Assembly (NCBI RefSeq): GCF_000003605.2
Contig: NW_003147980.1
Coordinates: 1 to 21,522 of the forward strand
Origin: Saccoglossus kowalevskii
Taxonomy: Eukaryota; Hemichordata; Enteropneusta; Harrimaniidae
DNA length: 21,522 nt
Direction of reading: 5' to 3'
This document shows positions 1 to 21,522 of this stretch, piece after piece; position 1 is the first letter of the stretch; the number at the start of each line of letters is the position of its first letter. Both the position numbers and the translations under genes were made by a program. Under the pieces are notes generated by a model. The model searched no databases. It was not told where the DNA came from and was given only the letters and a program-made list of their open reading frames with translations.

Positions 1-50
1 TCATTTCACTCATCATTTATTGTGATTTTGATGAGCTACGACGCAATGTT

Positions 51-300
51 TTACTAATCAATCATTGTCATTTTGACGTGCTACGACGCAATGTTTCACT
101 GATCATTCATTGTGATTTTGATGTGCAACGACGCAATGTTTCACTAATCATTCATTGTGATTGTGACGTGCTACGACGTACTGTTTCACTAAACGTTCAT
201 TGTGATTTTGATGTACTACGACGCAATGTTTCACTAATCATTCATTGTGATTGTGACGTGCTACGACGCAATGTTTCACTCATGATTCATTGTGATTGTG
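51..300. repeat. Module E, copy 1 (about 250 bp)
   Basis: A block of about 5.5 monomers marked by TCACTGATC, then TACTGTTTCACTAAACG near 179-195, then CATGATTCAT at 281. The same ordered set recurs at 2031-2280, exactly 1,980 bases (44 monomers) downstream, and at about 20006-20256. I count four differences between copies 1 and 2 by eye. It is a higher-order segment copied as a block, not a set of independently mutated monomers. Confidence 0.85.
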
Positions 301-689
301 ACGTGCTACGACGCAATGTTTCACTAATCATTCATTGTGATTGTGACGTGCTACGACTTAATGTGCCACTAATCATTCATTGTGATTGTGACGTGCTAGC
401 ACGCAATGTTTCACTAATCATTCATTGTGATTTTGAAGTACTACGACTCAATGTTTCACTAATCATTCATTGTGATTGTGACTAGCTACGACGCAATGTT
501 TCACTAATCAGCCATTGTGATTGTGACGTGCTACGACGCAATGTTTCACTAATCATTCATTGTTATTTTGATGTGCTACGACGTAATGTTTCACAAATCA
601 TTCATTGTGATTGTGATGTGCTACGACGTATTGTTTCACTAATCATTCAATGTGATTGTGACGTGCTACGACGCAATGTTTCACTAATC

Positions 690-895
690 ATTCTTTGTGA
701 TTTTGGTGTGCTAAGACGCAATGTTTCTCTAATCATTCATTGTGATTTTGATGTGCTACGACGCAATGTTTCACTATTCATTCATTGTGATTGTTATGTG
801 CTACAACGCAATGTTTCAGTAATCATTCATTGTGATTGTGATGTGGTACGACGCAAAGTTTTATTCATTATTCATTGTGATTGTGATATGCTAAA
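690..895. repeat. Module F, left copy (GGTGTG, TTTCTCT, CAGTAATC, GGTACGACGCAAAG)
   Basis: Rare variants occur in order: TTTTGGTGTGC (about 692), ATGTTTCTCTAATC (721), CTACAACGCAATGTTTCAG (about 801), GGTACGACGCAAAG (about 845), then CTAAAACGC near 891. The first part recurs at 11933-12060, and the GGTACGACGCAAAG to CTAAAACG part recurs at 21295-21350. Two separate distant regions therefore each hold half of this module. Confidence 0.78.
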
Positions 896-940
896 ACGCA
901 ATGTTTCACTAATCATTCATTGTGATTGTGACGTGCTACG

Positions 941-1200
941 ACTCAATGTTTCAGTCATCATTCATTGTGATTGTGACGTGCTACGACGCAATGTTTCACT
1001 AATCATTCATTGTGATTGTGACGTGCTACGACGGAATGTTCCACTAATCATTCATTGTGATTGTGACGTGCTACCACGCAATGTTTCACTAATCATTCAT
1101 TGTGATTTTGATGTACTACGACTCAATGTTTCACTAATCATTCATTGTGATTGTGACTTGCTACGACGCAATGTTTCACTAATCATTCATTGTGATTGTG
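941..1200. repeat. Module D, copy 1 (about 260 bp)
   Basis: An ordered run of rare monomers: ACTCAATGTTTCAGTCATC at 941, CGACGGAATGTTCCAC near 1030, CTACCACGC near 1072, GATGTACTACGACTC near 1110, and GTGACTTGC near 1153. The same order recurs at 2516-2775, exactly 1,575 bases (35 monomers) away. Its last three or four monomers recur at about 20711-20870. Confidence 0.85.
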
Positions 1201-2030
1201 ACGTGCTACGACGTAATGTTTCACGAATCGTTCATTGTGATTGTGACGTGCTACGACGCAATGTTTCACTAATCATTCATTGTGATTGTGACGTGCTACG
1301 ACGCTATGTTTCACTAATCATTCATTGTGATTTTGATGTGCTACGACGCAATGTTTCACTAATCATTCATTGTGATTGTGACGTGCTAAGACGTAATATT
1401 TCACTGATCATTCATTGTGATTTTGATGTGCTACGACGCAATGTTTTACTAATCAATCATTGTCATTTTGATGTGCTACGACGCAATGTTTCACTAATCA
1501 TTCATTGTCATTTTGATGTGCTACGACGCAATGTTTCACTAATCATTCATTGTGATTGCGATGTGCTACGACGCAATGTTTTATTCATTATTCATTGTGA
1601 TTGTGATGTGCTACGACGTAATGTTTCACTAATCATTCATTGTGATTGTGACGTGCTACGACGCAATGTTTCACTCATCATTCATTGTGATTTTGATGAG
1701 CTACGATGCAATGTTTTACTAATCAATCATTGTCATTTTGACGTGCTACGACGCAATGTTTCACTGATCATTCATTGTGATTTTGATGTGCTACGACGCA
1801 ATGTTTCACTAATCATTCATTGTGATTGTGACGTGCTACGACGTACTGTTTAACTAACCATTCATTGTGATTTTGATGTGCTACGACGCAATGTTTCACT
1901 AATCATTCATTGTGATTGTGACGTGCTACGACGTAATGTTGTATTCATTATTCATTGTGATTGTGATGTGCTACGACGTAATGTTTCACTAATCATTCAT
2001 TGTGATTGTGACGTGCTACGACGCAATGTT

Positions 2031-2280
2031 TCACTAATCAATCATTGCCATTTTGACGTGCTACGACGCAATGTTTCACTGATCATTCATTGTGATTTTG
2101 ATGTGCTACGACGCAATGTTTCACTAATCATTCATTGTGATTGTGACGTGCTACGACGTACTGTTTCACTAACCGTTCATTGTGATTTTGATGTACTACG
2201 ACGCAATGTTTCACTAATCATTCATTGTGATTGTGACGTGCTACGACGCAATGTTTCACTCATGATTCATTGTGATTGTG
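2031..2280. repeat. Module E, copy 2
   Basis: This is near-identical to 51-300 and carries AACCG where copy 1 has AAACG (near 2171). It is followed at 2431 by a second monomer with TACTGTTTCACTAACC, so the rare ACTG variant appears twice in a few hundred bases. It shares CATGATTCAT (2261) with the other copies. Confidence 0.85.
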
Positions 2281-2515
2281 ACGTGCTACGACGCAATGTT
2301 TCACTAATCATTCATTGTGATTGTGACGTGCTACGACGCAATGTTTCACTGATCATTCATTGTGATTTTGATGTGCTACGACGCAATGTTTCACTAATCA
2401 TTCATTGTGATTGTGACGTGCTACGACGTACTGTTTCACTAACCATTCATTGTGATTTTGATGTGCTACGACGCAATGTTTCACTAATCATTCATTGTGA
2501 TTGTGACGTGCTACG

Positions 2516-2775
2516 ACTCAATGTTTCAGTCATCATTCATTGTGATTGTGACGTGCTACGACGCAATGTTTCACTAATCATTCATTGTGATTGTGACGTG
2601 CTACGACGGAATGTTCCACTAATCATTCATTGTGATTGTGACGTGCTACCACGCAATGTTTCACTAATCATTCATTGTGATTTTGATGTACTACGACTCA
2701 ATGTTTCACTAATCATTCATTGTGATTGTGACTTGCTACGACGCAATGTTTCACTAATCATTCATTGTGATTGTG
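2516..2775. repeat. Module D, copy 2
   Basis: This matches 941-1200 monomer for monomer through the GTGACTTGC variant (near 2728). After that the two copies diverge: copy 1 continues with GACGTAATGTTTCACGAATCG while copy 2 continues with consensus monomers. The end of the shared block marks a duplication breakpoint. Confidence 0.84.
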
Positions 2776-3947
2776 ACGTGCTACGACGCAATGTTTCACT
2801 AATCATTCATTGTGATTGTGGCGTGCTACGACGCAATGTTTTACTCATTATTCATTGTGGTTGTGACGTGCTACGACGTAATGTTTCACTAATCATTCAT
2901 TGTGATTGTGACGTGCTACGACGCAATGTTTCACTCATCATTCATTGTGATTGTGACGTGTTACGACGCAATGTTTCACTCATCATTCATTGTGATTGTG
3001 ACGTGCTACGACGGAATGTTCCACTAATCATTCATTGTGATTGTGACGTGCTACGACGCAATGTTTCACTAATCATTCATTGTGATTTTGGCGTGCTACG
3101 ACGGAATGTTCCACTAATCATTCATTGTGATTGTGACGTGCTACCACGCAATGTTTCACTAATCATTCATTGTGATTTTGATGTACTACGACGCAATGTT
3201 TCACTAATCATTCATTGTGATTGTGACGTGCTACGACGCAATGTTTCACTAATCATTCATTGTGATTGTGACGTGCTACGACGTAATGTTTCACTAATCA
3301 TTCATTGTGATTGTTACGTGCTACGACGCAATGTTTCACTAATCATTCATTGTGATTGTGACGTGCTACGATGCAATGTTTCACTAATCATTCATTGTGA
3401 TTGTGACGTGCTACGACGTAATGTTTCACTAATCATTCATTGTGATTTTGATGTGCTACGACGTAATGTTTCACTAATCATTCATTGTGATTGTGACGTG
3501 CTACGACGCAATGTTTCACTCATCATTCATTGTGATTTTGATGAGCTACGACGCAATGTTTTACTAATCAATCATTGTCCTTTTGATGTGCTACGACGGA
3601 ATGTTTCACTAATCATTCATTCTCATTTTGATGTGCTACGACGCAATGTTTCACTAATCATTCATTGTGATTGTGACGTGCTACGACGCAATGTTTTACT
3701 CATTATTCATAGTGATTGTGACGTGCTACGACGCAATGTTTCACTAATCATTCATTGTGATTGTGACGTGCTACGACGGAATGTTCCACTAACCATTCAT
3801 TGTGATTGTGACGTGCTACCACGCAATGTTTCACTAATCATTCCTTGTGATTTTGATGTACTACGACGCAATGTTTCACTAAGCATTCATTGTGATTGTG
3901 ACGTGCTACGACATAATGTTTCACTAATCATTCATTGTGACTTTGAT

Positions 3948-4037
3948 GTGCTACGACGGCAATGTTTCACTCATCATTCATTGTGATTGTGATGTGCTAC
4001 GACGCAATGTTTCACTAATCATTCATTGTGATTTGAT
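3948..4037. repeat. Compensated 46 + 44 bp monomer pair
   Basis: Monomer 3948-3993 has an extra G (CTACGACGGCAATG) and monomer 3994-4037 lacks one T (GTGATTTGATG). Together they are 90 bases, so the 45-base register returns to 33. The frame between the two slips meets a stop at 3984-3986. Confidence 0.9.
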
Positions 4038-4637
4038 GTGCTACAACGCAATGTTTCACTCATCATTCATTGTGATTGTGACGTGCTACGACGTAATGTT
4101 TCACTAATCATTCATTGTGATTGTGACGTGCTACGACACAATGTTTCACTAATCATTCATTGTGATTGTGACGTGCTACGACGCAATGTTTCACTAATCA
4201 TTCATTGTGATTGTGACGTGCTACGACGCAATGTTTCACTCATCATTCATTGTGATTGTGACGTGCTACGACGCAATGTTTCACTAATCATTCATTGTGA
4301 TTTTGACGTGCTACGACGGAATGTTCCAATAATCATTCATTGTGATTGTGACGTGCTACCACGCAATGTTTCACTAATCATTCATTGTGATTTTGATGTA
4401 CTACGACGCAATGTTTCACTAATCATTCATTGTGATTGTGACGTGCTACGACGCAATGTTTCACTAATCATTCATTGTGATTGTGACGTGCTACGACGTA
4501 ATGTTTCACTAATCATTCATTGTGATTGTTACGTGCTACGACGCAATGTTTCACTAATCATTCATTGTGATTGTGACGTGCTACGATGCAATGTTTCACT
4601 AATCATTCATTGTGATTGTGACGTGCTATGATGCAAT

Positions 4638-5312
4638 GTGTCACTCATCATTCATTGTGATTTTGATGTGCTACGACGCAATGTTTCACTAATCATTCAT
4701 TGTGATTGTTGCGTGCTACGACGCAATATTTTACTCAGTATTCATTGTGGTTGTGACGTGCTACGACGTAATGTTTTACTCATTATTCGTTGTGATTGTG
4801 ATGTGCTACGACGCAATGTTTCACTAATCATTCATTGTGATTGTGACGTGCTACGACGCAATGTTTTACTAATCAAGCATTGTCATTTTGATGTGCTACG
4901 ACGCAATGTTTCACTAATCATTCATTGTGATTGTGATGTGCTACGACGCAATGTTTTATTCATTATTCCTTGTGATTATGATGTGCTACGACGTAATGTT
5001 TCACTAATCATTCATTGTGATTGTGACGTGCTACGACGCAATGTTTCACTCATCATTCATTGTGATTTTGATGAGCTACGACGCAATGTTTTACTAATCA
5101 ATCATTGTCATTTTGATGTGCTACGACGCAATGTTTCACTAATCATTCATTGTCATTTTGATGTGCTATGACGCAATGTTTCACTAATCATTCATTGTGA
5201 TTGTGACGTGCTATGACGCAATGTTTAACTCATTATTCATTGTGGTTGTGACGTGCTACAACTTAATGTTTTACTCATTATTCATTGTGAGTGTGACGTG
5301 CTATGACGCAAT
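4638..5312. repeat. Higher-order unit, 15 monomers (675 bp)
   Basis: The unit opens with the rare monomer variant GTGTCACTC and ends at the next such monomer. Internal markers in order are GATTGTTGCGTGC, two TTTTACTC monomers, TAATCAAGCATTGTC, TTTTATTC with GATTATGATG, GATGAGC, and TAATCAATCATTGTC. It then closes with TTTAACTC, CTACAACTTAATG and GTGAGTGTGACGTGCTATG. Units at 15957-16631 and 18837-19511 have the same length and near-identical marker order. Confidence 0.82.
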
Positions 5313-5807
5313 GTGTCACTCATCATTCATTGTGATTTTGATGTGCTACGACGCAATGTTTCACTAATCATTCATTGTGATTGTGGCGTGCTACGACGCA
5401 ATGTTTCACTCATCATTCATTGTGATTGTGACGTGCTACGACTCAATGTTTCACTAATCATTCGTTGTGGATTGTGACGTGCTACGACGGAATGTTCTAC
5501 AAATCATTCATTGTGATTGTGGCGTGCTACACGCAATGTTTCACTAATCATTCATTGCGATTCTGATGTACTACGACGCAATGTTTCACTAATCATTCAT
5601 TGAGATTTTGATGTGCTACGACGCAATGTTTCACTAATCATTCATTGTGATTGTGACGTGCTACGACGTAATGTTTCACTAATCATTCATTGTGATTGTG
5701 ACGTGCTATGACGCAATGTTTAACTCATTATTCATTGTGGTTGTGACGTGCTACAACATAATGTTTTACTCATTATTCATTGTGAGTGTGACGTGCTATG
5801 ACGCAAT
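5313..5807. repeat. Higher-order unit, 11 monomers (495 bp)
   Basis: A short unit bounded by GTGTCACTC monomers. It lacks the CAAGCATTG and GATGAG markers and instead contains CTACGACTC and the 46-45-44 compensated triplet, then the same closing TTTAACTC, CTACAACATAATG and GTGAGTGTG monomers. It appears to be a deletion or recombinant form of the longer units. Confidence 0.78.
5433..5567. repeat. Compensated 46-45-44 bp triplet, copy 1
   Basis: The first monomer has an extra G (CATTGTGGATTGTG), the second carries CGACGGAATG, and the third lacks one G (GCTACACGC). The total is 135 bases and the register is unchanged. In the repeat frame the extra G produces a TGA at once, before the second slip. 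Confidence 0.9.
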
Positions 5808-6572
5808 GTGTCACTCATCATTCATTGTGATTTTGATGTGCTACGACGCAATGTTTCACTAATCATTCATTGTGATTGTGGCGTGCTACGACGCAATGTT
5901 TTACTCATTATTCATTGTGGTTGTGACGTGCTACGACGTAATGTTTTACTCATTATTCATTGTGATTGTGATGTGCTACGACGCAATGTTTCACTAATCA
6001 TTCATTGTGATTGTGACGTGCTACGACGCAATGTTTTACTAATCAAGCATTGTCATTTTGATGTGCTACGACGCAATATTTCACTAATCATTCATTGTCA
6101 TTTTGATGTGCTACGACGCAATGTTTCACTAATCATTCATTGTGATTGTGATGTGCTACGACGCTATGTTTTATTCATTATTCATTGTGATTATGATGTG
6201 CTACGACGTAATGTTTCACTAATCATTCATTGTGATTGTGACGTGCTACGACGCAATGTTTCACTCATCATTCATTGTGATTTTGATGAGCTACGACGCA
6301 ATGTTTTACTAATCAATCATTGTCATTTTGATGTGCTACGACGCAATGTTTTACTAATCAAGCATTGTCATTTTGATGTGCTACGACGCATTGTTTCACT
6401 AATCATTCATTGTCATTTTGATGTGCTACGACGCAATGTTTCACTAATCATTCATTGTGATTGTGACGTGCTATGACGCAATGTTTAACTCATTATTCAT
6501 TGTGGTTGTGACGTGCTACAACTTAATGTTTTACTCATTATTCATTGTGAGTGTGACGTGCTATGACGCAAT
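5808..6572. repeat. Higher-order unit, 17 monomers (765 bp)
   Basis: It opens with GTGTCACTC. It carries the standard series GTGGCGTGC, two TTTTACTC monomers, CAAGCATTGTC, TTTTATTC with GATTATGATG, GATGAGC at 6285 and CAATCATTGTC. A second CAAGCATTGTC monomer lies near 6359, so the unit holds extra monomers compared with the 15-monomer form. It closes with TTTAACTC, CTACAACTTAATG and GTGAGTGTG. Confidence 0.8.
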
Positions 6573-7562
6573 GTGTCACTCTTCATTCATTGTCATTTTG
6601 ATGTGCTACGACGCAATGTTTCACTGATCATTCATTGTGATTGTGGCGTGCTACGACGCAATGTTTCACTCATCATTCATTGTGATTGTGACGTGCTACG
6701 ACTCAATGTTTCACTAATTATTCATTGTGGATTGTGACGTGCTACGACGGAATGTTCCACTAATCATTCATTGTGATTGTGACGTGCTACACGCAATGTT
6801 TCACTAATCATTCATTGTGGATTGTGACGTGCTACGACGGAATGTTCCACTAATCATTCATTGTGATTGTGACGTGCTACACGCAATGTTTCACTAATCA
6901 TTCATTGCGAATTTGATGTACTACGACGCAATGTTTCACTAATAATTCATTGTGATTTTGATGTGCTACGACGCAATGTTTCACTAATCATTCATTGTGA
7001 TTGTGACGTGCTACGACGTAATGTTTCACTGATCATTCATTGTCATTTTGAAGTGCTACGACGCAATGTTTTACTAATCAAGCATTGTCATTTTGATGTG
7101 CTACGACGCAATGTTTCACTAATTATTCATTGTCATTTTGATGTGCTACGACGCAATGTTTCACTAATCATTCATTGTGATTGTGATGTGCTACGACGCA
7201 ATGTTTTATTCATTATTCATTGTGATTGTGATGTGCTACGACGTAATGTTTCACTAATCATTCATTGTGATTGTGACATGCTACGACGCAATGTTTCACT
7301 CATCATTCATTGTGATTTTGATGAGCTACGACGCAATGTTTTACTAATCAATCATTGTCATTTTGATGTGCTACGACGCAATGTTTCACTAATCATTCAT
7401 TGTCATTTTGATGTGTTACGACGCAATGTTTCACTAATCATTCATTGTGATTGTGACATGCTATGACGCAATGTTTAACTCATTATTCATTGTGGTTGTG
7501 ACGTGCTACAACATAATGTTTTACTCATTATTCATTGTGAGTGTGACGTGCTATGACGCAAT
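6573..7562. repeat. Higher-order unit, 22 monomers (990 bp)
   Basis: It opens with GTGTCACTCTTC. It contains two overlapping copies of the 46-45-44 module (6693-6917), the CATTGCGAATTTGATG monomer at about 6904, and GTCATTTTGAAGTGC at about 7043. The standard GATGAG series follows at 7320. From about 6897 on it parallels 13986 onward at a fixed offset of 7,089 bases. Confidence 0.8.
6693..6917. repeat. Compensated module duplicated in tandem (five monomers)
   Basis: Extra G at GTGGATTGTG appears near 6729 and again near 6819; loss of G at CTACACGC appears near 6790 and 6880. The middle monomer carries both changes and so is 45 bases. Net change over 225 bases is zero. The 90-base block from about 6739 has been copied once in tandem, because 6739-6828 and 6829-6917 repeat the same variants. 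Confidence 0.88.
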
Positions 7563-7790
7563 GTGTCACTCATCATTCATTGTGATTTTGATGTGCTACG
7601 ACGCAATGTTTCACTAATCATTCATTGTGATTGTGGCGTGCTACGACGCAATGTTTTACTCATTATTCATTGTGGTTGTGACGTGCTACGACGTAATGTT
7701 TTACTCATTATTCATTGGGATTGTGATGTGCTACGACGCAATGTTTCACTAATCATTCATTGTGATTGTGACGTGCTACGACGCAATGTT
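6897..7790. repeat. Long-range duplicate A (partner at 13986-14879)
   Basis: Aligning at an offset of +7,089 bases, this segment and 13986-14879 share all rare variants, including CATTGCGAATTTG, TAATAATTC, GTCATTTTGAAGTGC and GTGACATGC. By eye there are roughly ten substitutions. The match ends where this copy loses one base (GTTAACTAATCAAG near 7790) and the partner keeps GTTTTACTAATC. Confidence 0.82.
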
Positions 7791-8281
7791 AACTAATCAA
7801 GCATTGTCATTTTGATGTGCTACGACGCAATATTTCACTAATCATTCATTGTCATTTTGATGTGCTACGACGCAATGTTTCACTAATCATTCATTGTGAT
7901 TGTGATGTGCTACGACGCAATGTTTTATTCATTATTCCTTGTGATTATGATGTGCTACGACGTAATGTTTCACTAATCATTCATTGTGATTGTGACGTGC
8001 TACGACGCAATGTTTCACTCATCATTCATTGTGATTTTGATGAGCTACGACGCAATGTTTTACTAATCAATCATTGTCATTTTGATGTGCTACGACGCAA
8101 TGTTTCACTAATCATTCATTGTCATTTTGATGTGCTATGACGCAATGTTTCACTAATCATTCATTGTGATTGTGACGTGATATGACGCAATGTTTAACTC
8201 ATTATTCATTGTGGTTGTGACGTGCTACAACTTAATGTTTTACTCATTATTCATTGTGAGTGTGACGTGCTATGACGCAAT
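7563..8281. repeat. Higher-order unit, 16 monomers minus one base (719 bp)
   Basis: It opens with GTGTCACTC and carries ATTCATTGGGATTG at about 7712 and the one-base-short GTTAACTAATCAAG near 7790, then TTTTATTC, GATTATGATG and GATGAG at 8039. The base loss shifts the register from 33 to 32 for the rest of the left domain. Both rare variants recur together at 19660-19745. Confidence 0.82.
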
Positions 8282-8536
8282 GTGTCACTCATCATTCATT
8301 GTGATTTTGATGTGCTACGACGCAATGTTTCACTAATCATTCATTGTGATTGTGGCGTGCTACGACGCAATGTTTCACTCATCATTCATTGTGATTGTGA
8401 CGTGCTACGACTCAATGTTTCACTAATCATTCATTGTGATTGTGACGTGCTACGACGCAATGTCTCACTAATCATTCATTGTGATTTTGATGTGCTACGA
8501 CGCAATGTTTCACTAATCATTCATTGTGACTGCGAC
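8282..8536. repeat. Boundary between left higher-order family and central subfamily
   Basis: The last GTGTCACTC monomer of the left family (8282) is followed by GTGGCGTGC, CGACTCAATG, TGTCTCACTAATC (8461), and GACTGCGACGTGC (about 8528). From here the monomers belong to the central subfamily; GTGTCACTC and GATGAG markers are absent until about 14.4 kb. Confidence 0.75.
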
Positions 8537-9356
8537 GTGCTATGACGCAATGTTTCACTCATCATTCATTGTGACGTGCGACGACGCAATCTTTCACTAA
8601 TCATTCATTGTGATTTTGATGTGCTACGACCCAATGTTTCACTAATAATTCATTGTGATTTTGATGTGCTACAACGTATTGTTTCACTAATCATTCATTG
8701 GGATTTTGACGTGCTACGACGCAATGTTTCACTAATCATTCACTGTGACTGTGACGTGCTACGACGCAATGTTTCACTAATCATTCATTGTGATTGTGAC
8801 GTGCTACGACGTAATGTTTCACTAATCATTCATCGTCATTTTGATGTGCTACGACGCAATGTTTCACTAATCATTCATTGTGATTGTGACGTGCTACGAC
8901 CTAATGTTGCACTGATCATTCATTGTGATTTTGATGTGCTACGACGTAAAGTTTCACTAATCATTCATTGTGATTTTGATGTGCTACGATGCAATGTTTC
9001 ACTAATCATTCATTGTGATTTTGAAGTGTTACGAAGCAATGTTTCACTAATCATTCATTGTGATTTTGACGTGCTACGACGTAATGTTTCACTAATCATT
9101 CATTGTGATTTTGATGTGCTACGATGCAATGTTTCACTAAGCTTTCATTGTGATTTTGAAGTGTTACGACGCAATGTTTCACTAATCATTCATTGTGATT
9201 TTGACGTGCTAGGACACAATGTTTCTGTAATCATTCATTGTGATTTTGATATGCTACGACGCAATGTTTCACTAATCATTCATTGTGATTGTGATGTGCT
9301 ACGACTCAATGTTTCACTAATCATTAATTGTGATTGTGACGTGCTACGACGCAATG
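8480..9356. repeat. Central higher-order block, copy 1 (about 877 bp)
   Basis: At an offset of 1,793 bases this matches 10273-11149. Line-by-line reading finds only three mismatches before the break (8769 A/T, about 9143 T/A, 9326 A/C). Shared rare variants include AATCTTTCAC, CGACCCAATG, CTACAACGTATTG, CATCGTCATTTTG, GTGTTACGAAGC, CTAGGACACAATG and TTTCTGTAATC. Most monomers are of the TTTTGATG type. Confidence 0.92.
8537..8575. repeat. 39-bp deletion monomer, copy 1
   Basis: CATTGTGACGTGCGACG replaces CATTGTGATTGTGACG: one of the two ATTGTG hexamers is missing. The register moves by -6. The loss is explained by slippage between the paired hexamers inside the monomer. The same event is seen at 10330 and 11404, so it was copied with the block. 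Confidence 0.93.
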
Positions 9357-9640
9357 TTGCACTAATCATTCATTGTGATTGTGACGTTCTACGACGCAAT
9401 GTTTTACTCATTATTCATTGTGGTTGTGACGTGCTACGACATAATGTTTTACTCATTATTCATTGTGATTGTGGCGTGCTACGACGTAATGTTTTACTCA
9501 TCATTCATTGTGATTGTGACATGCTACGACGCAATGTTTTACTCATTATTCATTGAGGTTGTGACGTGCTGCGACGTAAATTTTTACTCATTATTCATTG
9601 TGATTGTGATGTGCTACGACGCAATGTTTCACTAATCATT
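9340..9640. repeat. TTTTACTC monomer run, copy 1 (opens a second frame)
   Basis: Five or six consecutive monomers carry TTTTACTCATT in place of TTTCACTAATC. This block is inserted between the two near-identical central copies and resembles 12268-12520, sharing GTTGCAC, TGTGGCGTGC, GTGACATG and CGTAAA variants. Loss of the TAA found in the consensus leaves a second forward frame open from ATG at 9375 to 9635, reading a hydrophobic unit such as MFYSLFIVVVTCYDA. I see this as a side effect of the variant, not a gene. Confidence 0.78.
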
Positions 9641-10272
9641 CATTGTGATTTTGATGTGCTAAGACGCAATGTTTCGCTAATCATTCATTGTGATTGTGAT
9701 GTGCTACGACGTAATGTTTCACTAATCATTCATTGTGATTTTGATGTGCCACGACGTAATGTTTCACTAATCATTCATTGTGATTTTCATGTGCTACGAC
9801 ACAATGTTTCACTTATCATTCATTGTGACTGTGACGTGCTACGACGCAATGCTTCACTAATCATTCATTGTGATTGTGACGTGCTACGACGCAATGTTTC
9901 ACTAGTCATTCATTGTGATTGTTACGTGCTACGAAACAATGTTTCACTAATCATTCCTTGTGATTGTGACGTGCTACGACCTAATGTTTCACTGATCATT
10001 CATTGTGATTTTATGTGCTACGACCTAATGTTTCACTAATCATTCATTGTGATTTTGATGTGCTACGACTCAATGTTTCACTAATCATTCATTGTGATTG
10101 TGACGTGCTACGACGCAATGTCTCACTAATCATTCATTGTGATTTTGATGTGCTGCGATGCAATGTTTCACTAAGCATTCGTTGTGATTTTGATGTGCTA
10201 CGACGCAATGTTTCACTAATCATTCATTGTGATTTTGATGTGCTAGGACGTAATGTTTCACTAATCATTCTT

Positions 10273-11149
10273 TGTGATTTTGATGTGCTACGACGCAATG
10301 TTTCACTAATCATTCATTGTGACTGCGACGTGCTATGACGCAATGTTTCACTCATCATTCATTGTGACGTGCGACGACGCAATCTTTCACTAATCATTCA
10401 TTGTGATTTTGATGTGCTACGACCCAATGTTTCACTAATAATTCATTGTGATTTTGATGTGCTACAACGTATTGTTTCACTAATCATTCATTGGGATTTT
10501 GACGTGCTACGACGCAATGTTTCACTAATCATTCACTGTGACTGTGACGTGCTACGACGCATTGTTTCACTAATCATTCATTGTGATTGTGACGTGCTAC
10601 GACGTAATGTTTCACTAATCATTCATCGTCATTTTGATGTGCTACGACGCAATGTTTCACTAATCATTCATTGTGATTGTGACGTGCTACGACCTAATGT
10701 TGCACTGATCATTCATTGTGATTTTGATGTGCTACGACGTAAAGTTTCACTAATCATTCATTGTGATTTTGATGTGCTACGATGCAATGTTTCACTAATC
10801 ATTCATTGTGATTTTGAAGTGTTACGAAGCAATGTTTCACTAATCATTCATTGTGATTTTGACGTGCTACGACGTAATGTTTCACTAATCATTCATTGTG
10901 ATTTTGATGTGCTACGATGCAATGTTTCACTAAGCATTCATTGTGATTTTGAAGTGTTACGACGCAATGTTTCACTAATCATTCATTGTGATTTTGACGT
11001 GCTAGGACACAATGTTTCTGTAATCATTCATTGTGATTTTGATATGCTACGACGCAATGTTTCACTAATCATTCATTGTGATTGTGATGTGCTACGACTC
11101 AATGTTTCACTAATCATTCATTGTGATTGTGACGTGCTACGACGCAATG
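10273..11149. repeat. Central higher-order block, copy 2
   Basis: This is the near-identical partner of 8480-9356. It lies within a 1,074-base unit (10364-11437, 24 monomers with one 6-base-short). After 11149 it continues with TCTCACTAATC, GATGCAATG and CTAAGCATTCG monomers, which also occur before it at 10119-10190, so the unit is itself tandemly repeated. Confidence 0.92.
10330..10368. repeat. 39-bp deletion monomer, copy 2
   Basis: Identical to 8537-8575, including CTATGAC and TTTCACTCATC, and 1,793 bases (40 monomers) downstream of it. It again shifts the register by -6 (25 to 19). Confidence 0.93.
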
Positions 11150-11340
11150 TCTCACTAATCATTCATTGTGATTTTGATGTGCTACGATGCAATGTTTCAC
11201 TAAGCATTCGTTGTGATTTTGATGTGCTACGACGCAATGTTTCATTAATCATTCATTGTGATTTTGATGTGCTAGGACGTAATGTTTCACTAATCATTCT
11301 TTGTGATTTTGATGTGCTACGACGCAATGTTTCACTAATC

Positions 11341-11600
11341 ATTCATTGTGATTTTGATGTGCTACGACGCAATGTTTCACTAATCATTCATTGTGACTGC
11401 GACGTGCTACGACGCAATGTTTCACTCATCATTCATTGTGACGTGCGACGACGCAATCTTTCACTAATCATTCATTGTGATTTTGATGTGTTACGACCCA
11501 ATGATTCACTAATAATTCATTGTGATTTTGATGTGCTACAACGTATTGTTTCACTAATCATACAATGGGATTTTGACGTGCTACGACGCAATGTTTCACT
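11341..11600. repeat. Central higher-order block, truncated copy 3
   Basis: This begins the same series again (GACTGCGACGTGC, the 39-base monomer, AATCTTTCAC, GACCCAATG, CTACAACGTATTG, GGGATTTTGACG) but leaves it after about five monomers. It is more diverged, with GTGTTACGACCC, AATGATTCAC and CATACAATGGG variants. Confidence 0.85.
11404..11442. repeat. 39-bp deletion monomer, copy 3
   Basis: The same hexamer loss, 1,074 bases (24 monomers) after copy 2, but with CTACGAC where copies 1 and 2 have CTATGAC. Because the loss is a multiple of three, the repeat frame stays open through it. Confidence 0.93.
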
Positions 11601-11932
11601 AATCATTCATTGTGATTGTGATGTGCTACGACGCAATGTTTCACTAATCATTCATTGTGATTGTGATGTACTACGACGCAATGTTTCACGAATCACTCAT
11701 TTTGATTGTGACGTGCTTCGACGCAATGTTTCACTAATCATCATGTGATTGTTATGTGGTACGACGCAATGTTTCACTAATCATTCATTGTGGATTTTGA
11801 TGTGCTACGACGCAATGTTTCACTAATCATTCATTGTGATTGTGATGTGCTACGACGTAATGTTTCACTAATCATTCATTGTGATTGTGACGTGCTTCGA
11901 CGCAATGTTTTACTAATCATTCATTGTGATTT

Positions 11933-12065
11933 TGGTGTGCTACGACGCAATGTTTCTCTAATCATTCATTGTGATTTTGATGTGCTACGACGCAATGTTT
12001 CACTAATCATTCATTGTGATTGTGATGTGCTACAACGCAATGTTTCAGTAATCATTCATTGGGAT
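11933..12065. repeat. Module F, central partial copy
   Basis: This shares TTTTGGTGTGC, TTTCTCTAATC and CTACAACGCAATGTTTCAG with 690-835, in the same order and spacing. After it, the sequence changes to a GTGCCACTACGC monomer that is not seen in the left copy. Confidence 0.75.
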
Positions 12066-12267
12066 TGTGACGTGCCACTACGCAATGTTTCACTCATCGT
12101 TCATTGTGATTTTGATGTGCTACGACGCAATGTTTTACTAATCAATCATTGTCATTTTGATGTGCTACGACGCAATGTTTTATTCATTATTCATTGTGAT
12201 TGTGATGTGCTACGACGTAATGTTTCACTAATCATTCATTGTGATTGAGACGTGCTACGGCGCAATG

Positions 12268-12520
12268 TTGCACTAATCATTCATTGTGATTGTGACGTGC
12301 TACGACGCAATGTTTTACTCATTATTCATTGTGGTTGTGACGTGCTACGACGTAATGTTTTACTCATTATTCATTGTGACTGTGGCGTGCTACGACGTAA
12401 AATTTTACTCATCATTCATTGTGATTGTGACATGTTACGACGCAATGTTTTACTCATTATTCATTGTGGTTGTGACGTGCAGCGACGTAATGTTTTACTA
12501 ATCATTCATTGTGATTGTGA
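12268..12520. repeat. TTTTACTC monomer run, copy 2
   Basis: A paralogue of 9356-9640: GTTGCACTAATC, then TTTTACTCATTATTC monomers with TGTGGCGTGC, CGTAAAATTTTACTC, GTGACATG and a GTGCAGCGACG variant. It too opens the second frame (12286-12501). It ends in the transition to the 900-base tandem duplication. Confidence 0.78.
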
Positions 12521-12533
12521 TGTGCTGCGACGC

Positions 12534-13433
12534 AATGTTTCACTAATCATTCATTGTGATTGTGACATGCTACGACGCAATGTTTCACTCATCATTCATT
12601 GTGATTGTGACGTGCTACGACGCAATGTTTCACTAATCATTCATTGTGATTGTGACGTGCTACGACGTAATGTTTCACTAATCATTCATTGGGATTGTTA
12701 CGTGCTACGACGCAATGTTTCACTAATCATTCATTGTGATTGTAACGTGCTACGACGCAATGTTTCACTAATCATTCATTATGATTTTGATGTGCTACGA
12801 TGCAATGTTTCACTAATCATTCATTGTGATTGTGACGTGCTACGACGTAATGTTTCACTAATCATTCATTGTGATTTTGATGTGCTACGACGCAATGTTT
12901 CACTAATCATTCATTGTGATTGTGGCGTGCTACGACGCAATGTTTCACTCATCATTCATTGTGATTGTGACGTGCTACGACTCAATGTTTCACTAATCAT
13001 TCATTGTGGATTGTGACGTGCTACGACGGAATGTTTCACTAATCATTCATTGTGATTGTGACGTGCTACACGCAATGTTTCACTAAACATTCATTGCGAA
13101 TTTGATGTACTACGACGCAATGTTTCACTAATAATTCATTGTGATTTTGATGTGCTACGACGCAATGTTTCACTAATCATTCATTGTGATTGTGACGTGC
13201 TACGACGTAATGTTTCACTGATCATTCATTGTCATTTTGAAGTGCTACGACGCAATGTTTTACTAATCAAGCATTGTCATTTTGATGTGCTACGACGCAA
13301 TGTTTCACTAATCATTCATTGTCATTTTGATGTGCTACGACGCAATGTTTCACTAATCATTCATTGTGATTGTGATGTGCTAAGACGCAATGTTTTATTC
13401 ATTATTCATTGTGATTGTGATGTGCTACGACGT
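12534..13433. repeat. 900-bp tandem duplication, copy 1 (20 monomers)
   Basis: Compared line by line with 13434-14333 this copy shows a single difference: 13036 has T (GTTTCAC) where 13936 has C (GTTCCAC). All other rare variants are shared, including GGGATTGTTACG, ATTATGATTTTG, GTAACGTGC, the compensated 46-45-44 triplet and CTAAGACGC. This is the most recent duplication visible in the window. Confidence 0.95.
12972..13106. repeat. Compensated 46-45-44 bp triplet, in 900-bp copy 1
   Basis: Extra G at CATTGTGGATTGTG (13008) and missing G at GCTACACGC (13069-13070), as at 5433-5567. The register stays at 12. The frame is ended by TGA at 13014-13016 between the two slips. Confidence 0.9.
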
Positions 13434-14333
13434 AATGTTTCACTAATCATTCATTGTGATTGTGACATGCTACGACGCAATGTTTCACTCATCATTCATT
13501 GTGATTGTGACGTGCTACGACGCAATGTTTCACTAATCATTCATTGTGATTGTGACGTGCTACGACGTAATGTTTCACTAATCATTCATTGGGATTGTTA
13601 CGTGCTACGACGCAATGTTTCACTAATCATTCATTGTGATTGTAACGTGCTACGACGCAATGTTTCACTAATCATTCATTATGATTTTGATGTGCTACGA
13701 TGCAATGTTTCACTAATCATTCATTGTGATTGTGACGTGCTACGACGTAATGTTTCACTAATCATTCATTGTGATTTTGATGTGCTACGACGCAATGTTT
13801 CACTAATCATTCATTGTGATTGTGGCGTGCTACGACGCAATGTTTCACTCATCATTCATTGTGATTGTGACGTGCTACGACTCAATGTTTCACTAATCAT
13901 TCATTGTGGATTGTGACGTGCTACGACGGAATGTTCCACTAATCATTCATTGTGATTGTGACGTGCTACACGCAATGTTTCACTAAACATTCATTGCGAA
14001 TTTGATGTACTACGACGCAATGTTTCACTAATAATTCATTGTGATTTTGATGTGCTACGACGCAATGTTTCACTAATCATTCATTGTGATTGTGACGTGC
14101 TACGACGTAATGTTTCACTGATCATTCATTGTCATTTTGAAGTGCTACGACGCAATGTTTTACTAATCAAGCATTGTCATTTTGATGTGCTACGACGCAA
14201 TGTTTCACTAATCATTCATTGTCATTTTGATGTGCTACGACGCAATGTTTCACTAATCATTCATTGTGATTGTGATGTGCTAAGACGCAATGTTTTATTC
14301 ATTATTCATTGTGATTGTGATGTGCTACGACGT
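13434..14333. repeat. 900-bp tandem duplication, copy 2
   Basis: Partner of 12534-13433. Identity to the start of the next repeat continues to 14406, where GTGATTTTGATGAG replaces GTGATTGTGACG; that is the right breakpoint. The left breakpoint is near 12533, where CTGCGACGC and CTACGACGT differ. Confidence 0.95.
13872..14006. repeat. Compensated 46-45-44 bp triplet, in 900-bp copy 2
   Basis: The same paired slips as at 12972-13106, copied with the 900-base duplication. It retains CGACGGAATGTTCCAC in the middle monomer, the form also seen at 6829, while copy 1 has GTTTCAC. Confidence 0.9.
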
Positions 14334-14879
14334 AATGTTTCACTAATCATTCATTGTGATTGTGACATGCTACGACGCAATGTTTCACTCATCATTCATT
14401 GTGATTTTGATGAGCTACGACGCAATGTTTTACTAATCAATCATTGTCATTTTGATGTGCTACGACGCAATGTGTCACTAATCATTCATTGTCATTTTGA
14501 TGTGCTACGACGCAATGTTTCACTAATCATTCATTGTGATTGTGACGTGCTATGACGCAATGTTTAACTCATTATTCATTGTGGTTGCGAGGTGCTACAA
14601 CATAATGTTTTACTCATTATTCATTGTGAGTGTGACGTGCTATGACGCAATGTGTCACTCATCATTCATTGTGATTTTGATGTGCTACGACGCAATGTTT
14701 CACTAATCATTCATTGTGATTGTGGCGTGCTACGACGCAATGTTTTACTCATTATTCATTGTGGTTGTGACGTGCTACGACGTAATGTTTTACTCATTAT
14801 TCATTGTGATTGTGATGTGCTACGACGCAATGTTTCACTAATCATTCATTGTGATTGTGACGTGCTACGACGCAATGTT
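13986..14879. repeat. Long-range duplicate A, partner copy
   Basis: This pairs with 6897-7790 at a fixed 7,089-base offset. Private changes here include CTAAGACGC near 14280, TGTGTCACTAATC at 14461 and GTTGCGAGGTGC near 14585. The pairing shows that the right-hand higher-order family and the left one derive from a common block despite the unrelated central domain between them. Confidence 0.82.
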
Positions 14880-15956
14880 TTACTAATCAAGCATTGTTAT
14901 TTTGATGTGCTACGACGCAATGTTTCACTAATCATTCATTGTCATTTTGATGTGCTACGACGCAATGTTTCACTAATCATTCATTGTGATTGTGATGTGC
15001 TACGACGCAATGTTTTATTCATTATTCATTGTGATTATGATGTGCTACGACGTAATGTTTCACTAATCATTCATTGTGATTGTGACGTGCTACGACGCAA
15101 TGTTTCACTCATCATTCATTGTGATTTTGATGAGCTACGACGCAATGTTTTACTAATCAATCATTGTCATTTTGATGTGCTACGACGCAATGTTTCACTA
15201 ATCATTCATTGTGATTGTGACGTGCTACGACGCAATGTTTCACTCATCATTCATTGTGATTGTGACGTGCTACGACGGAATGTTCCACTAATCATTCATT
15301 GTGATTGTGACGTGCTACCACGCAATGTTTCACTAATCATTCATTGTGATTTTGATGTGCTACGACGCAATGTTTCACTCATCATTCATTGTGATTGTGA
15401 CGTGCTACGACGTAATGTTTCACTAATCATTCATTGTGATTGTGACGTGCTACGACACAATGTTTCACTAATCATTCATTGTGATTGTGACGTGCTACGA
15501 CACAATGTTTCACTAATCATTCATTGTGATTGTGACGTGCTACGACGCAATGTTTCACTCATCATTCATTGTGATTGTGACGTGCTACGACGCAATGTTT
15601 CACTAATCATTCATTGTGATTTTGACGTGTTACGACGGAATGTTCCACTAATCATTCATTGTGATTGTGACGTGCTACCACGCAATGTTTCACTAATCAT
15701 TCATTGTGATTTTGATGTACTACGACGCAATGTTTCACTAATCATTCATTGTGATTGTGACGTGCTACGACGCATTGTTTCACTAATCATTCATTGTGAT
15801 TGTGACGTGCTACGACGTAATGTTTCACTAATCATTCATTGTGATTGTTACGTGCTACGACGCAATGTTTCACTAATCATTCATTGTGATTGTGACGTGC
15901 TACGATGCAATGTTTCACTAATCATTCATTGTGATTGTGACGTGCTATGATGCAAT
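14652..15956. repeat. Higher-order unit, 29 monomers (1,305 bp)
   Basis: It opens with GTGTCACTC and runs the standard series to GATGAG at 15129. It then adds a second half of CGACGGAATGTTCCAC, CTACCACGC, CGACACAATG and GATGTACTAC monomers before closing with CTATGATGCAATG. The second half matches 18061-18836 at +2,880 bases and 4038-4637 in the left domain. Confidence 0.82.
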
Positions 15957-16631
15957 GTGTCACTCATCATTCATTGTGATTTTGATGTGCTACGACGCAA
16001 TGTTTCACTAATCATTCATTGTGATTGTGGCGTGCTACAACGCAATGTTTCACTCATCATTCATTGTGATTGTGACGTGCTACGACGTAATGTTTTACTC
16101 ATTATTCATTGTGATTGTGATGTGCTACGACGCAATGTTTCACTAATCATTCATTGTGATTGTGACGTGCTACGACGCAATGTTTTACTAATCAAGCATT
16201 GTCATTTTGATGTGCTACGACGCAATGTTTCACTAATCATTCATTGTGATTGTGATGTGCTACGACGCAATGTTTTATTCATTATTCATTGTGATTATGA
16301 TGTGCTACGACGTAATGTTTCACTAATCATTCATTGTGATTGTGACGTGCTACGACGCAATGTTTCACTCATCATTCATTGTGATTTTGATGAGCTACGA
16401 CGCAATGTTTTACTAATCAATCATTGTCATTTTGATGTGCTACGACGCAATGTTTCACTAATCATTCATTGTCATTTTGATGTGCTACGACGCAATGTTT
16501 CACTAATCATTCATTGTGATTGTGACGTGCTATGACGCAATGTTTAACTCATTATTCATTGTGGTTGCGACGTGCTACAACATAATGTTTTACTCATTAT
16601 TCATTGTGAGTGTGACGTGCTATGACGCAAT
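15957..16631. repeat. Higher-order unit, 15 monomers (675 bp)
   Basis: The same length and marker order as 4638-5312 and 18837-19511: GTGTCACTC, GTGGCGTGC, TTTTACTC, CAAGCATTGTC, TTTTATTC with GATTATGATG, GATGAG (16389), CAATCATTGTC, TTTAACTC, CTACAACATAATG, GTGAGTGTG. It is distinguished by GTGCTACAACGC near 16032. Confidence 0.84.
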
Positions 16632-17486
16632 GTGTCACTCATCATTCATTGTGATTTTGATGTGCTACGACGCAATGTTTCACTAATCATTCATTGCGAT
16701 TGTGGCGTGCTACGACGCAATGTTTTACTCATTATTCATTGTGGTTGTGACGTGCTACGACGTAATGTTTTACTCATTATTCATTGTGATTGTGATGTGC
16801 TACGACGCAATGTTTCACTAATCATTCATTGTGTTTGTGACGTGCTACGACGCAATGTTTTACTAATCAAGCATTGTCATTTTGATGTGCTACGACGCAA
16901 TGTTTCACTAATCATTCATTGTCATTTTGATGTGCTACGACGCAATGTTTCACTAATCATTCATTGTGATTGTGATGTGCTACGACGCAATGTTTTATTC
17001 ATTATTCATTGTGATTATGATGTGCTACGACGTAATGTTTCACTAATCATTCATTGTGTTTGTGACGTGCTACGACGCAATGTTTCACTCATCATTCATT
17101 GTGATTTTGATGAGCTACGACGCAATGTTTTACTAATCAATCATTGTGATTGTGACGTGCTACGACGCAATGTTTCACTAATCATTCATTGTGATTGTGA
17201 CGTGCTACGACGGAATGTTTCACTAATCATTCATTGTGATTGTGACGTGCTACGACGCAATGTTTCACTAATCAATCATTGTCATTTTGATGTGCTACGA
17301 CGCAATGTTTCACTAATCATTCATTGTCATTTTGATGTGCTACGACGCAATGTTTCACTAATCATTCATTGTGATTGTGACGTGCTATGACGCAATGTTT
17401 AACTCATTATTCATTGTGGTTGCGACGTGCTACAACATAATGTTTTACTCATTATTCATTGTGAGTGTGACGTGCTATGACGCAAT
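16632..17486. repeat. Higher-order unit, 19 monomers (855 bp)
   Basis: The standard series with extra consensus-like monomers after GATGAG (17109). GTGTTTGTGACG near 16831 and 17056 is a private variant found twice in this unit, which suggests local copying inside the unit. It closes with TTTAACTC, GTTGCGACG and GTGAGTGTG. Confidence 0.82.
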
Positions 17487-18836
17487 GTGTCACTCATCAT
17501 TCATTGTGATTTTGATGTGCTACGACGCAATGTTTCACTAATCATTCATTGTGATTGTGGCGTGCTACGACGCAATGTTTTACTCATTATTCATTGTGGT
17601 TGTGACGTGCTACGACGTAATGTTTTACTCATTATTCATTGTGATTGTGATGTGCTACGACGCAAAGTTTCACTAATCATTCATTGTGATTGTGACGTGC
17701 TACGACGCAATGTTTTACTAATCAGGCATTGTCATTTTGATGTGCTACGATGCAATGTTTCACTAATCATTCATTGTCATTTTGATGTGCTACGACGCAA
17801 TGTTTCACTAATCATTCATTGTGATTGTGATGTGCTACGACGCAATGTTTTATTCATTATTCATTGTGATTATGATGTGCTACGACGTAATGTTTCACTA
17901 ATCATTCATTGTGATTGTGACGTGCTACGACGCAATGTTTCACTCATCATTCATTGTGATTTTGATGAGCTACGACGCAATGTTTTACTAATCAATCATT
18001 GTCATTTTGATGTGCTACGACGCAATGTTTCACTAATCATTCATTGTCATTTTGATGTGCTACGACGCAATGTTTCACTAATCATTCATTGTGATTGTGA
18101 CGTGCTACGACGCAATGTTTCACTCATCATTCATTGTGATTGTGACGTGCTACGACGGAATGTTCCACTAATCATTCATTGTGATTGTGACGTGCTACCA
18201 CGCAATGTTTCACTAATCATTCATTGTGATTTTGATGTGCTACGACGCAATGTTTCACTCATCATTCATTGTGATTGTGACGTGCTACGACGTAATGTTT
18301 CACTAATCATTCATTGTGATTGTGACGTGCTACGACGCAATGTTTCACTAATCATTCATTGTGATTGTGACGTGCTACGACGCAATGTTTCACTAATCAT
18401 TCATTGTGATTGTGACGTGCTACGACGCAATGTTTCACTCATCATTCATTGTGATTGTGACGTGCTACGACGCAATGTTTCACTAATCATTCATTGTGAT
18501 TTTGACGTGCTATGACGGAATGTTCCACTAATCATTCATTGTGATTGTGACGTGCTACCACGCAATGTTTCACTAATCATTCATTGTGATTTTGATGTAC
18601 TACGACGCAATGTTTCACTAATCATTCATTGTGATTGTGACGTGCTACGACGCAATGTTTCACTAATCATTCGTTGTGATTGTGACGTGCTACGACGTAA
18701 TGTTTCACTAATCATTCATTGTGATTGTTACGTGCTACGACGCAATGTTTCACTAATAATTCATTGTGATTGTGACGTGCTACGATGCAATGTTTCACTA
18801 ATCATTCATTGTGATTGTGACGTGCTATGATGCAAT
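17487..18836. repeat. Higher-order unit, 30 monomers (1,350 bp)
   Basis: A composite unit like 14652-15956 but with one extra GTCATTTTGATG monomer near 18050. The second half has CGACGGAATGTTCCAC twice, CTACCACGC twice, GATTGTTACG and CGATGC. A CTATGACGG monomer near 18510 gives a TGA in the repeat frame. GATGAG lies at 17964. Confidence 0.82.
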
Positions 18837-19511
18837 GTGTCACTCATCATTCATTGTGATTTTGATGTGCTACGACGCAATGTTTCACTAATCATCCATT
18901 GTAATTGTGGCGTGCTACGACGCAATGTTTTACTCATTATTCATTGTGGTTGTGACGTGCTACGACGTAATGTTTTACTCATTATTCATTGTGATTGTGA
19001 TGTGCTACGACGCAATGTTTCACTAATCATTCATTGTGATTGTGACGTGCTACGACGCAATGTTTTACTAATCAAGCATTGTCATTTTGATGTGCTACGA
19101 CGCAATGTTTCACTAATCATTCATTGTGATTGTGATGTGCTACGACGCAATGTTTTATTCATTATTCATTGTGATTATGATGTGCTACGACGTAATGTTT
19201 CACTAATCATTCATTGTGATTGTGACGTGCTACGACGCAATGTTTCACTCATCATTCATTGTGATTTTGATGAGCTACGACGCAATGTTTTACTAATCAA
19301 TCATTGTCATTTTGATGTGCTACGACGCAATGTTTCACTAATCATTCATTGTCATTTTGATGTGCTACGACGCAATGTTTCACTAATCATTCATTGTGAT
19401 TGTGACGTGCTATGACGCAATGTTTAACTCATTATTCATTGTGGTTGCGACGTGCTACAACATAATGTTTTACTCATTATTCATTGTGAGTGTGACGTGC
19501 TATGACGCAAT
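18837..19511. repeat. Higher-order unit, 15 monomers (675 bp)
   Basis: This aligns with 15957-16631 at +2,880 bases (64 monomers). Private changes are CATCCATTGTAATTG near 18895 and TTTTACTC at 18927 where the partner has TTTCACTC. GATGAG lies at 19269. Confidence 0.84.
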
Positions 19512-20005
19512 GTGTCACTCATCATTCATTGTGATTTTGATGTGCTACGACGCAATGTTTCACTAATCATTCATTGTGATTGTGGCGTGCTACGACGCAA
19601 TGTTTACTCATTATTCATTGTGGTTGTGACGTGCTACGACGTAATGTTTTACTCATTATTCATGGGATTGTGATGTGCTACGACGCAATGTTTCACTAAT
19701 CATTCATTGTGATTGTGACGTGCTACGACGCAATGTTAACTAATCAAGCATTGTCATTTTGATGTGCTACGACGCAATGTTTTACTAATCAATCATTGTC
19801 ATTTTGATGTGCTACGACGCAATGTTTCACTAATCATTCATTGTGATTGTGATGTGCTAGGACGCAATGTTTTATTCATTATTCATTGTGATTGTGATGT
19901 GCTACGACGTAATGTTTCACTAATCATTCATTGTGATTGTGACGTGCTACGACGCAATGTTTCACTCATCATTCATTGTGATTTTGATGAGCTACGACGC
20001 AATGT
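19512..20005. repeat. Higher-order unit with three single-base losses (-3 net)
   Basis: It opens with GTGTCACTC. One base is lost at each of three sites within about 140 bases: GTTTACTC (about 19604), TTCATGGGATTG (about 19663) and GTTAACTAATCAAG (about 19735). The register moves from 12 to 9. The repeat frame is broken between them but returns after the third, open again from about 19764. GATGAG lies at 19986, 16 monomers (minus 3 bases) after the previous one. Confidence 0.85.
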
Positions 20006-20256
20006 TTTACTAATCAATCATTGTCATTTTGACGTGCTACGACGCAATGTTTCACTGATCATTCATTGTGATTTTGATGTGCTACGACGCAATGTTTCAC
20101 TAATCATTCATTGTGATTGTGACGTGCTTCGACGTTCTGTTTCACTAACCGTTCATTGTGATTTTGATGTACTACGACGCAATGTTTCACTAATCATTCA
20201 TTGTGATTGTGACGTGCTATGACGCAATGTTTCACTCATGATTCATTGTGATTGTG
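20006..20256. repeat. Module E, copy 3, near the right edge
   Basis: This carries the same ordered markers as 51-300 and 2031-2280: TCACTGATC, a CTGTTTCACTAACCG monomer near 20137-20150, and CATGATTCAT at 20237. After correcting for net indels it lies 444 monomers from copy 1. It differs by CTTCGACGTTCTG at about 20126 and a CTATGAC monomer at about 20217, which puts a TGA in the otherwise open frame. Confidence 0.82.
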
Positions 20257-20700
20257 ACGTGCTACGACGCAATGTTTCACTAATCATTCATTGTGATTGT
20301 GACGTGCTACGACGCAATGTTTCACTAATCATTCATTTTGATTGTGACGTGCTACTACGTAATGTTTCACTAATCATTCATTGTGAATGTTACGTGCTAC
20401 TACGCAATGTTTCACTAATCTTTCATTGTGATTGAGAGTGCTACGACGCAATGTTTCACTGATCATTCATTGTGATTTTGATGTGCTACGACGCAATGTT
20501 TCACTAATCATTCATTGTGATTGTGACGTGCTACGACGTACTGTTTCAATAACCATTCATTGTGATTTTGATGTGCCACGACGCAATGTTTCACTAATCA
20601 TTCATTGTGATTGTGACGTGCTACGACGCAATGTTTCACTCATCATTCATTGTGATTGTGACGTGCTACGACGCAATGTTTCACTAATCATTCATTGTGA

Positions 20701-20875
20701 TTGTGACGTGCTACGACGGAATGTTCCACTAATCATTCATTGTGATTGTGACGTGCTACCACGCAATGTTTCACTAATCATTCATTGTGATTTTGATGTA
20801 CTACGACTCAATGTTTCACTAATCATTCATTGTGATTGTGACTTGCTACGACGCAATGTTTCACTAATCATTCAT
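20701..20875. repeat. Module D, partial copy 3
   Basis: This keeps the CGACGGAATGTTCCAC, CTACCACGC, GATGTACTACGACTC and GTGACTTGC monomers in the order of modules at 941 and 2516, but lacks the leading CAGTCATC monomer. It supports the view that the right edge of the window descends from the same ancestral segment as the left edge. Confidence 0.8.
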
Positions 20876-21290
20876 TGTGATTGTGACGTGCTACGACGCA
20901 ATGTTTCACTAATCATTCATTGTGATTTTGATGTGCTACGACGTAATGTTTCACAAATCATTCATTGTGATTTTGACGTGCTACGACGCAATGTTTCACT
21001 AATCATTCATTGTGATTGTGATGTGCTACGACGCTATGTTTCACTAATTATTCATTGTGATTGTGATGTACTGCGACGCAATGTTTCACTAATCACTCAT
21101 TGTGACTGTGATGTGCTACGACGCAATGTTTCACTAATCATTCAATGTGATTGTTATGTGGTACGACGCAATGTTTCACTAATCATTCATTGCGATTGTG
21201 ATGTGCTACGACGTATTGTTTCACTAATCATTCAATGTGATTGTGACGTGCTACGACGCAATGTTTCACTAATCATTCATTGTGATTGTG

Positions 21291-21350
21291 ATGTGGTACG
21301 ACGCAAAGTTTTATTCATTATTCATTGTGATTGTGATGTGCTAAAACGTA
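21291..21350. repeat. Module F, right partial copy
   Basis: GATGTGGTACGACGCAAAG followed by TTTTATTCATTATTC and CTAAAACGTAATG matches 841-900 apart from two substitutions near the end (GATGTG against GATATG, ACGT against ACGC). It is one of the clearest links between the two ends of the window. Confidence 0.75.
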
Positions 21351-21522
21351 ATGTTTCACTAATCATTCATTGTGATTGTGACGTGCTACGACGCAATGTT
21401 GCACTAATCATTCATTTAGATTGTGACGTGCTACGACGCAATGTTTTAATCATTATTCATTGTGGTTGTGACGTGCTACGACGCAATGTTTCACTAATCA
21501 CTCATTGTGAATGTGATGTGTG

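Follow-up and report, generated by a model that had tools for sequence, protein, structure and literature searches.

The question raised by this locus is whether the repeated DNA that fills the window (the whole stretch analysed, 21,522 bp) is an ordinary satellite, the repeat region of a gene, a structured RNA element, a local minisatellite or a centromere repeat. The earlier note had described a satellite-type array of ~479 45-bp monomers filling the window, with no unique DNA at either edge. Here, Tandem Repeats Finder (TRF) was applied to the whole window and returned a single array, with 89% matches and a copy number in agreement with that description:

4..21520, + strand: 45-bp tandem array, consensus TTTCACTAATCATTCATTGTGATTGTGACGTGCTACGACGCAATG, 478.7 copies in one orientation (TRF, cyclic alignment and strand check)

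Identity at a lag of 45 was 86.5%, whereas 200 base shuffles averaged 27.5% and did not exceed 28.2%. No sub-repeat was observed within the 45-bp unit, identity at lags 3 to 44 being in every case 34.6% or lower. On the + strand, 463 places matched the consensus without gaps at 36 or more of the 45 positions, and the best score on the - strand was 23 of 45. The units are arranged head-to-tail, and TRF, alignment and strand check all returned a long array built from this one unit. Given that gapless matches of at least 33 of 45 to the consensus were never more than 134 bases apart, the array carries no foreign insert. The composition was 37.5% G+C and 62.5% AT, with T (38.2%) exceeding A (24.3%) to give a T/A ratio of 1.57.

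Three bases at the start of the window and two at its end lie outside the TRF array and are too short for judgement. Both window edges cut the array and flanking DNA is absent from the window, so the claim that unique sequence is lacking at either edge also holds. A single local minisatellite expansion, as opposed to an abundant satellite, is an unlikely account of the locus: that only one array is contained in the 21,522-bp window is compatible with it, but an array that exceeds 21.5 kb and whose ends both lie out of view would be large for a minisatellite.

To describe variation among units, the array was set out as a cyclic alignment of 480 rows, in which the partial row at each edge was counted. 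Gap-free rows numbered 462 and comprised 193 distinct sequences. Their mean identity to the consensus was 93.4%, with a minimum of 80% (36 of 45 positions), and 44 units were exact copies of the consensus. Across all 480 rows, pairs were on average 88.6% identical. Identity to the consensus was even along the array, lying between 0.918 and 0.961 in 23 of 24 bins. The alignment contained 25 gap events, of which 21 involved one base and three involved six, the remaining one being a three-base event at the very start. The 18 gapped rows, which include the two partial edge rows, were excluded from the counts of variant types and from the coding counts.

The most common changes from the consensus among the 480 rows were C29T (210), G25T (171), A8C (119), C41T (92) and C4T (85), followed by C11T (65) and G21C (55). 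Several columns varied together, with correlations of 0.71 for columns 25 and 29, 0.66 for columns 4 and 11 and 0.65 for columns 13 and 21, and the units therefore fall into loose subfamilies. Columns 25 and 8, the two tested, showed no strong alternation over lags of 1-12 units (largest absolute correlation 0.127). Transitions per site were more frequent at the three CpGs than elsewhere, both among all rows (C to T, 84.7 versus 45.2; G to A, 14.3 versus 6.0) and among distinct units (C to T, 36.3 versus 19.3; G to A, 8.7 versus 3.3). The C to T excess at CpGs was due to column 29 alone, where 210 changes were counted, the other two sites having 27 and 17. Decay of methylated CpGs is a possible reading of these counts.

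The unit length of 45 is divisible by 3, and one of the six frames of the consensus is open. The array might in principle belong to a giant protein-coding gene and encode repeats of 15 residues in the frame SLIIHCDCDVLRRNV, although we consider this highly improbable. In its favor, 24 open reading frames were listed in the window, the longest of 702 aa, and changes weighted by copies numbered 225, 492 and 646 by codon position, with the third position highest. Weighted in the same way, 622 of 1363 changes were synonymous, an enrichment over the 34 of 135 possible changes. In our reading, this enrichment arises because a few common variants were spread by block copying. By contrast, when each kind of change was counted once, the synonymous share was 26 of 102 against the same 34 of 135 possible, that is, the chance rate. 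Furthermore, a stop was present in the open frame in 41 of the 462 units, stop-making changes accounted for 41 of 1363 changes by copies against 5 of 135 possible, and the frame is shifted by the one-base gaps.

A Pfam scan of two of the listed open reading frames returned only BILBO1_N, with E values of 5e-05 and 0.00014 and scores of 24 and 22.5 bits that stay under the cut-off of 28.3. No individual stretch passed, and these sub-threshold matches are taken as the result of summing over repeats. A coding repeat is thus disfavored by the stops and by the synonymous rate per kind of change, the copy-weighted count pointing the opposite way; on these two measures the array is non-coding, as a satellite would be, despite the copy-weighted excess. 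A coding past of the array is possible. TGA made up 30 of the 41 in-frame stops, and 27 of these lay at the consensus CGA codon.

An interpretation of the unit as a hairpin or RNA element was also rejected. One unit folded as DNA was no better than shuffled sequence (z -0.71; 46 of 200 shuffles folded equally well), and the same was true of four units folded as RNA (z -0.23; 79 of 200). Covariation at the nine predicted hairpin pairs, assessed with the 193 distinct units, was close to independence, the largest difference being 116 versus 111.8. No inverted repeats were detected in bases 1-6000, the part scanned, and no Rfam family or tRNA was matched across the whole window. Among the short motifs searched for, three telomere repeats, the CRE and the DnaA box gave 0 matches on both strands. 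TGACGTG was found 211 times on the + strand because the motif belongs to the unit, and GAANNTTC (15 occurrences) and GATC (14 occurrences) were present in a minority of units.

In our view, the window is very probably the interior of a longer, ordinary non-coding satellite block, probably from a eukaryotic genome and possibly of an uncatalogued family. The internal history of this block is visible in the similarity between distant units. When a run was defined as at least 6 consecutive units, each at least 95.5% identical to its counterpart elsewhere in the array, 123 near-identical runs were obtained, compared with at most 7, and 1.55 on average, when unit order was shuffled 20 times. These runs covered 393 of the 480 units, and the copied blocks span 6-24 units at irregular distances within the array. 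An exact-match scan returned 44 internal matches of at least 180 bases, the longest of 627 bases, at distances of 64, 20, 39.8, 35, 29, 45 and 27 units, among others. The principal duplications were as follows:

16070..16696, + strand: first copy of the 627-base exact duplication, 64 units from the second (exact-match scan)
18950..19576, + strand: second copy of the 627-base exact duplication (exact-match scan)
12534..14406, + strand: block duplicated at a lag of 900 bp, or 20 units (exact-match scan); the sequence at 12534 is matched exactly at 13434 over 502 bases, and that at 13037 is matched exactly at 13937 over 470 bases
8770..9142, + strand: 373-base exact duplication at a lag of 1793, second copy at 10563-10935 (exact-match scan)

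The lag of 1793 carries three exact matches of at least 180 bases, and a further exact match of 318 bases was observed at a distance of 35 units. A pattern of this kind is expected of unequal exchange, conversion or block amplification, and the mechanism is an inference from it.

Some of the alignment gaps recur. A six-base deletion of columns 16-21 was found three times, at 8568, 10361 and 11435, and the first two are separated by 1793 bases, which is also the spacing of an exactly duplicated block. In five places, a single base inserted after column 20 is paired with loss of column 37 62 bases further on, a convenient marker of block copying:

5469-5531, 6729-6791, 6819-6881, 13008-13070 and 13908-13970: insertion and column-37-loss pairs (cyclic alignment)

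The arrangement of the copied blocks was assessed for a regular higher-order unit. When runs had to span 5 or more units, no block occurring three times in series was found in the whole window at any lag of 6-159 units, and a regular higher-order unit is therefore not apparent in the window. Mean identity across lags 1-199 was 0.886. Values at lags 64 and 44 (0.9005 and 0.8962) exceeded the maximum of 0.8945 obtained in 100 unit-order shuffles, and the share of near-identical pairs at lags 64 and 252 (0.267 and 0.259) exceeded the maximum of 0.245 in 50 shuffles. The match at lag 64 was strong in only three 16-unit bins, covering units 336-383 (0.975-0.989), such that the excess falls mostly within ~48 units; we read it as block copying. 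In binned data, lags 64, 63, 44, 20, 40 and 39 were each strong in one local patch, and no patch reached 0.95 at lag 35. A very long higher-order unit reaching past the window is possible.

A satellite with a unit this short could, by analogy, be the repeat that CENH3 binds at the centromere of its host, the short units serving one or more chromosomes, a suggestion that we regard as tentative and rather doubtful. The CENP-B box core TTCGNNNNANNCGGG gave 0 matches on both strands of the whole window, which tells against such a role, though the box is missing from many centromere satellites. The closest parallel in kind to the 45-bp array in the sources cited is provided by field bean (Vicia faba), for which Table 1 of PMC5895790 gives three CenH3-enriched satellites, VfSat7 (44 bp), VfSat13 (47 bp) and VfSat6 (50 bp), and it is these that make a centromeric role plausible. 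According to the same source, all three are AT-rich (64-70.5%), and the A/T strand bias is strong in two of them (1.91 for VfSat6 and 2.56 for VfSat13) and 1.21 in VfSat7. The unit described here is similarly short, and its AT content of 62.5% and T/A ratio of 1.57 are of the same kind, the likeness being one of length and composition. By contrast, no satellite in Table 1 of PMC5895790 is listed at 45 bp, and CenH3 enrichment has been demonstrated for the three field bean satellites and is hypothetical for the present array. Other short field bean satellites, namely VfSat2 (~26 bp), VfSat4 (38 bp), TIII15 (58 bp) and FokI (59/57 bp), are given there as not enriched, with ratios of 0.4-1.9 (PMC5895790). 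Unit length is consequently no guide to a centromere role, and this counts against the centromeric interpretation.

A second comparison concerns the arrangement of blocks. The CNM repeat of chicken has a unit of 41 bp. PMC9974502 describes centromeric CNM repeats arranged in higher-order units of 26-98 copies, 5-162 per cluster. That range matches the sizes of the block lags in the array, which lends some support to a centromeric role, and it indicates that a short monomer can be organized into a long higher-order unit (PMC9974502). Both are short-unit satellites in which blocks of tens of units have been copied; unlike the serial higher-order units described for CNM, blocks of the 45-bp array do not reach three consecutive copies at lags of 6-159 units. 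The fuller proposition, that an uncatalogued satellite of unusually short unit is the CENH3-bound centromere of its host and is maintained through the copying of blocks tens of units long, in place of a regular higher-order unit, appears distinctly unlikely.

The discovery of new satellite families is routine. For the present array, membership of an undescribed family is plausible. Six fragments of the monomer were unmatched in open-access main text, monomer sequences often being placed in supplements. Where a similar length was mentioned in the literature cited, it mostly referred to something else: "45-bp" denotes part of another repeat in PMC7290008, "45 nt" denotes probes in PMC10027222 and PMC9974502, and "45 bp" is an exon length in PMC8226300. 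A 45-bp variant of PboSat12 is described in the frog Physalaemus ephippifer (PMC12191414), and it shares its monomer length with the array. No match to window bases 901-2900 (2,000 of the 21,522 bases) was found among 50,697 phage records and 72,556 plasmid records, and none was found with three short patterns in viral contigs or with two exact patterns in GTDB genomes, all of these being searches from which near records may be omitted. These negative results say little because a eukaryotic satellite is not expected in such collections.

Returning to the ordinary non-coding satellite block favored above, growth of the array and the similarity of its units could both be accounted for if misaligned copies recombine (through unequal exchange and gene conversion) or by block amplification, and selection on a product would not be what keeps the units alike. 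Any role would most likely be passive or structural, as heterochromatin that lies in a chromosome-arm block or at or close to a centromere. The array shows no sign of a new mechanism, its pattern of copying being the usual one for a satellite, and it opens no new question. If abundant, it would provide a chromosome marker for the host and a further example of a short-unit satellite. In addition, the clear record of block copying preserved within one array could be used in the study of satellite expansion.
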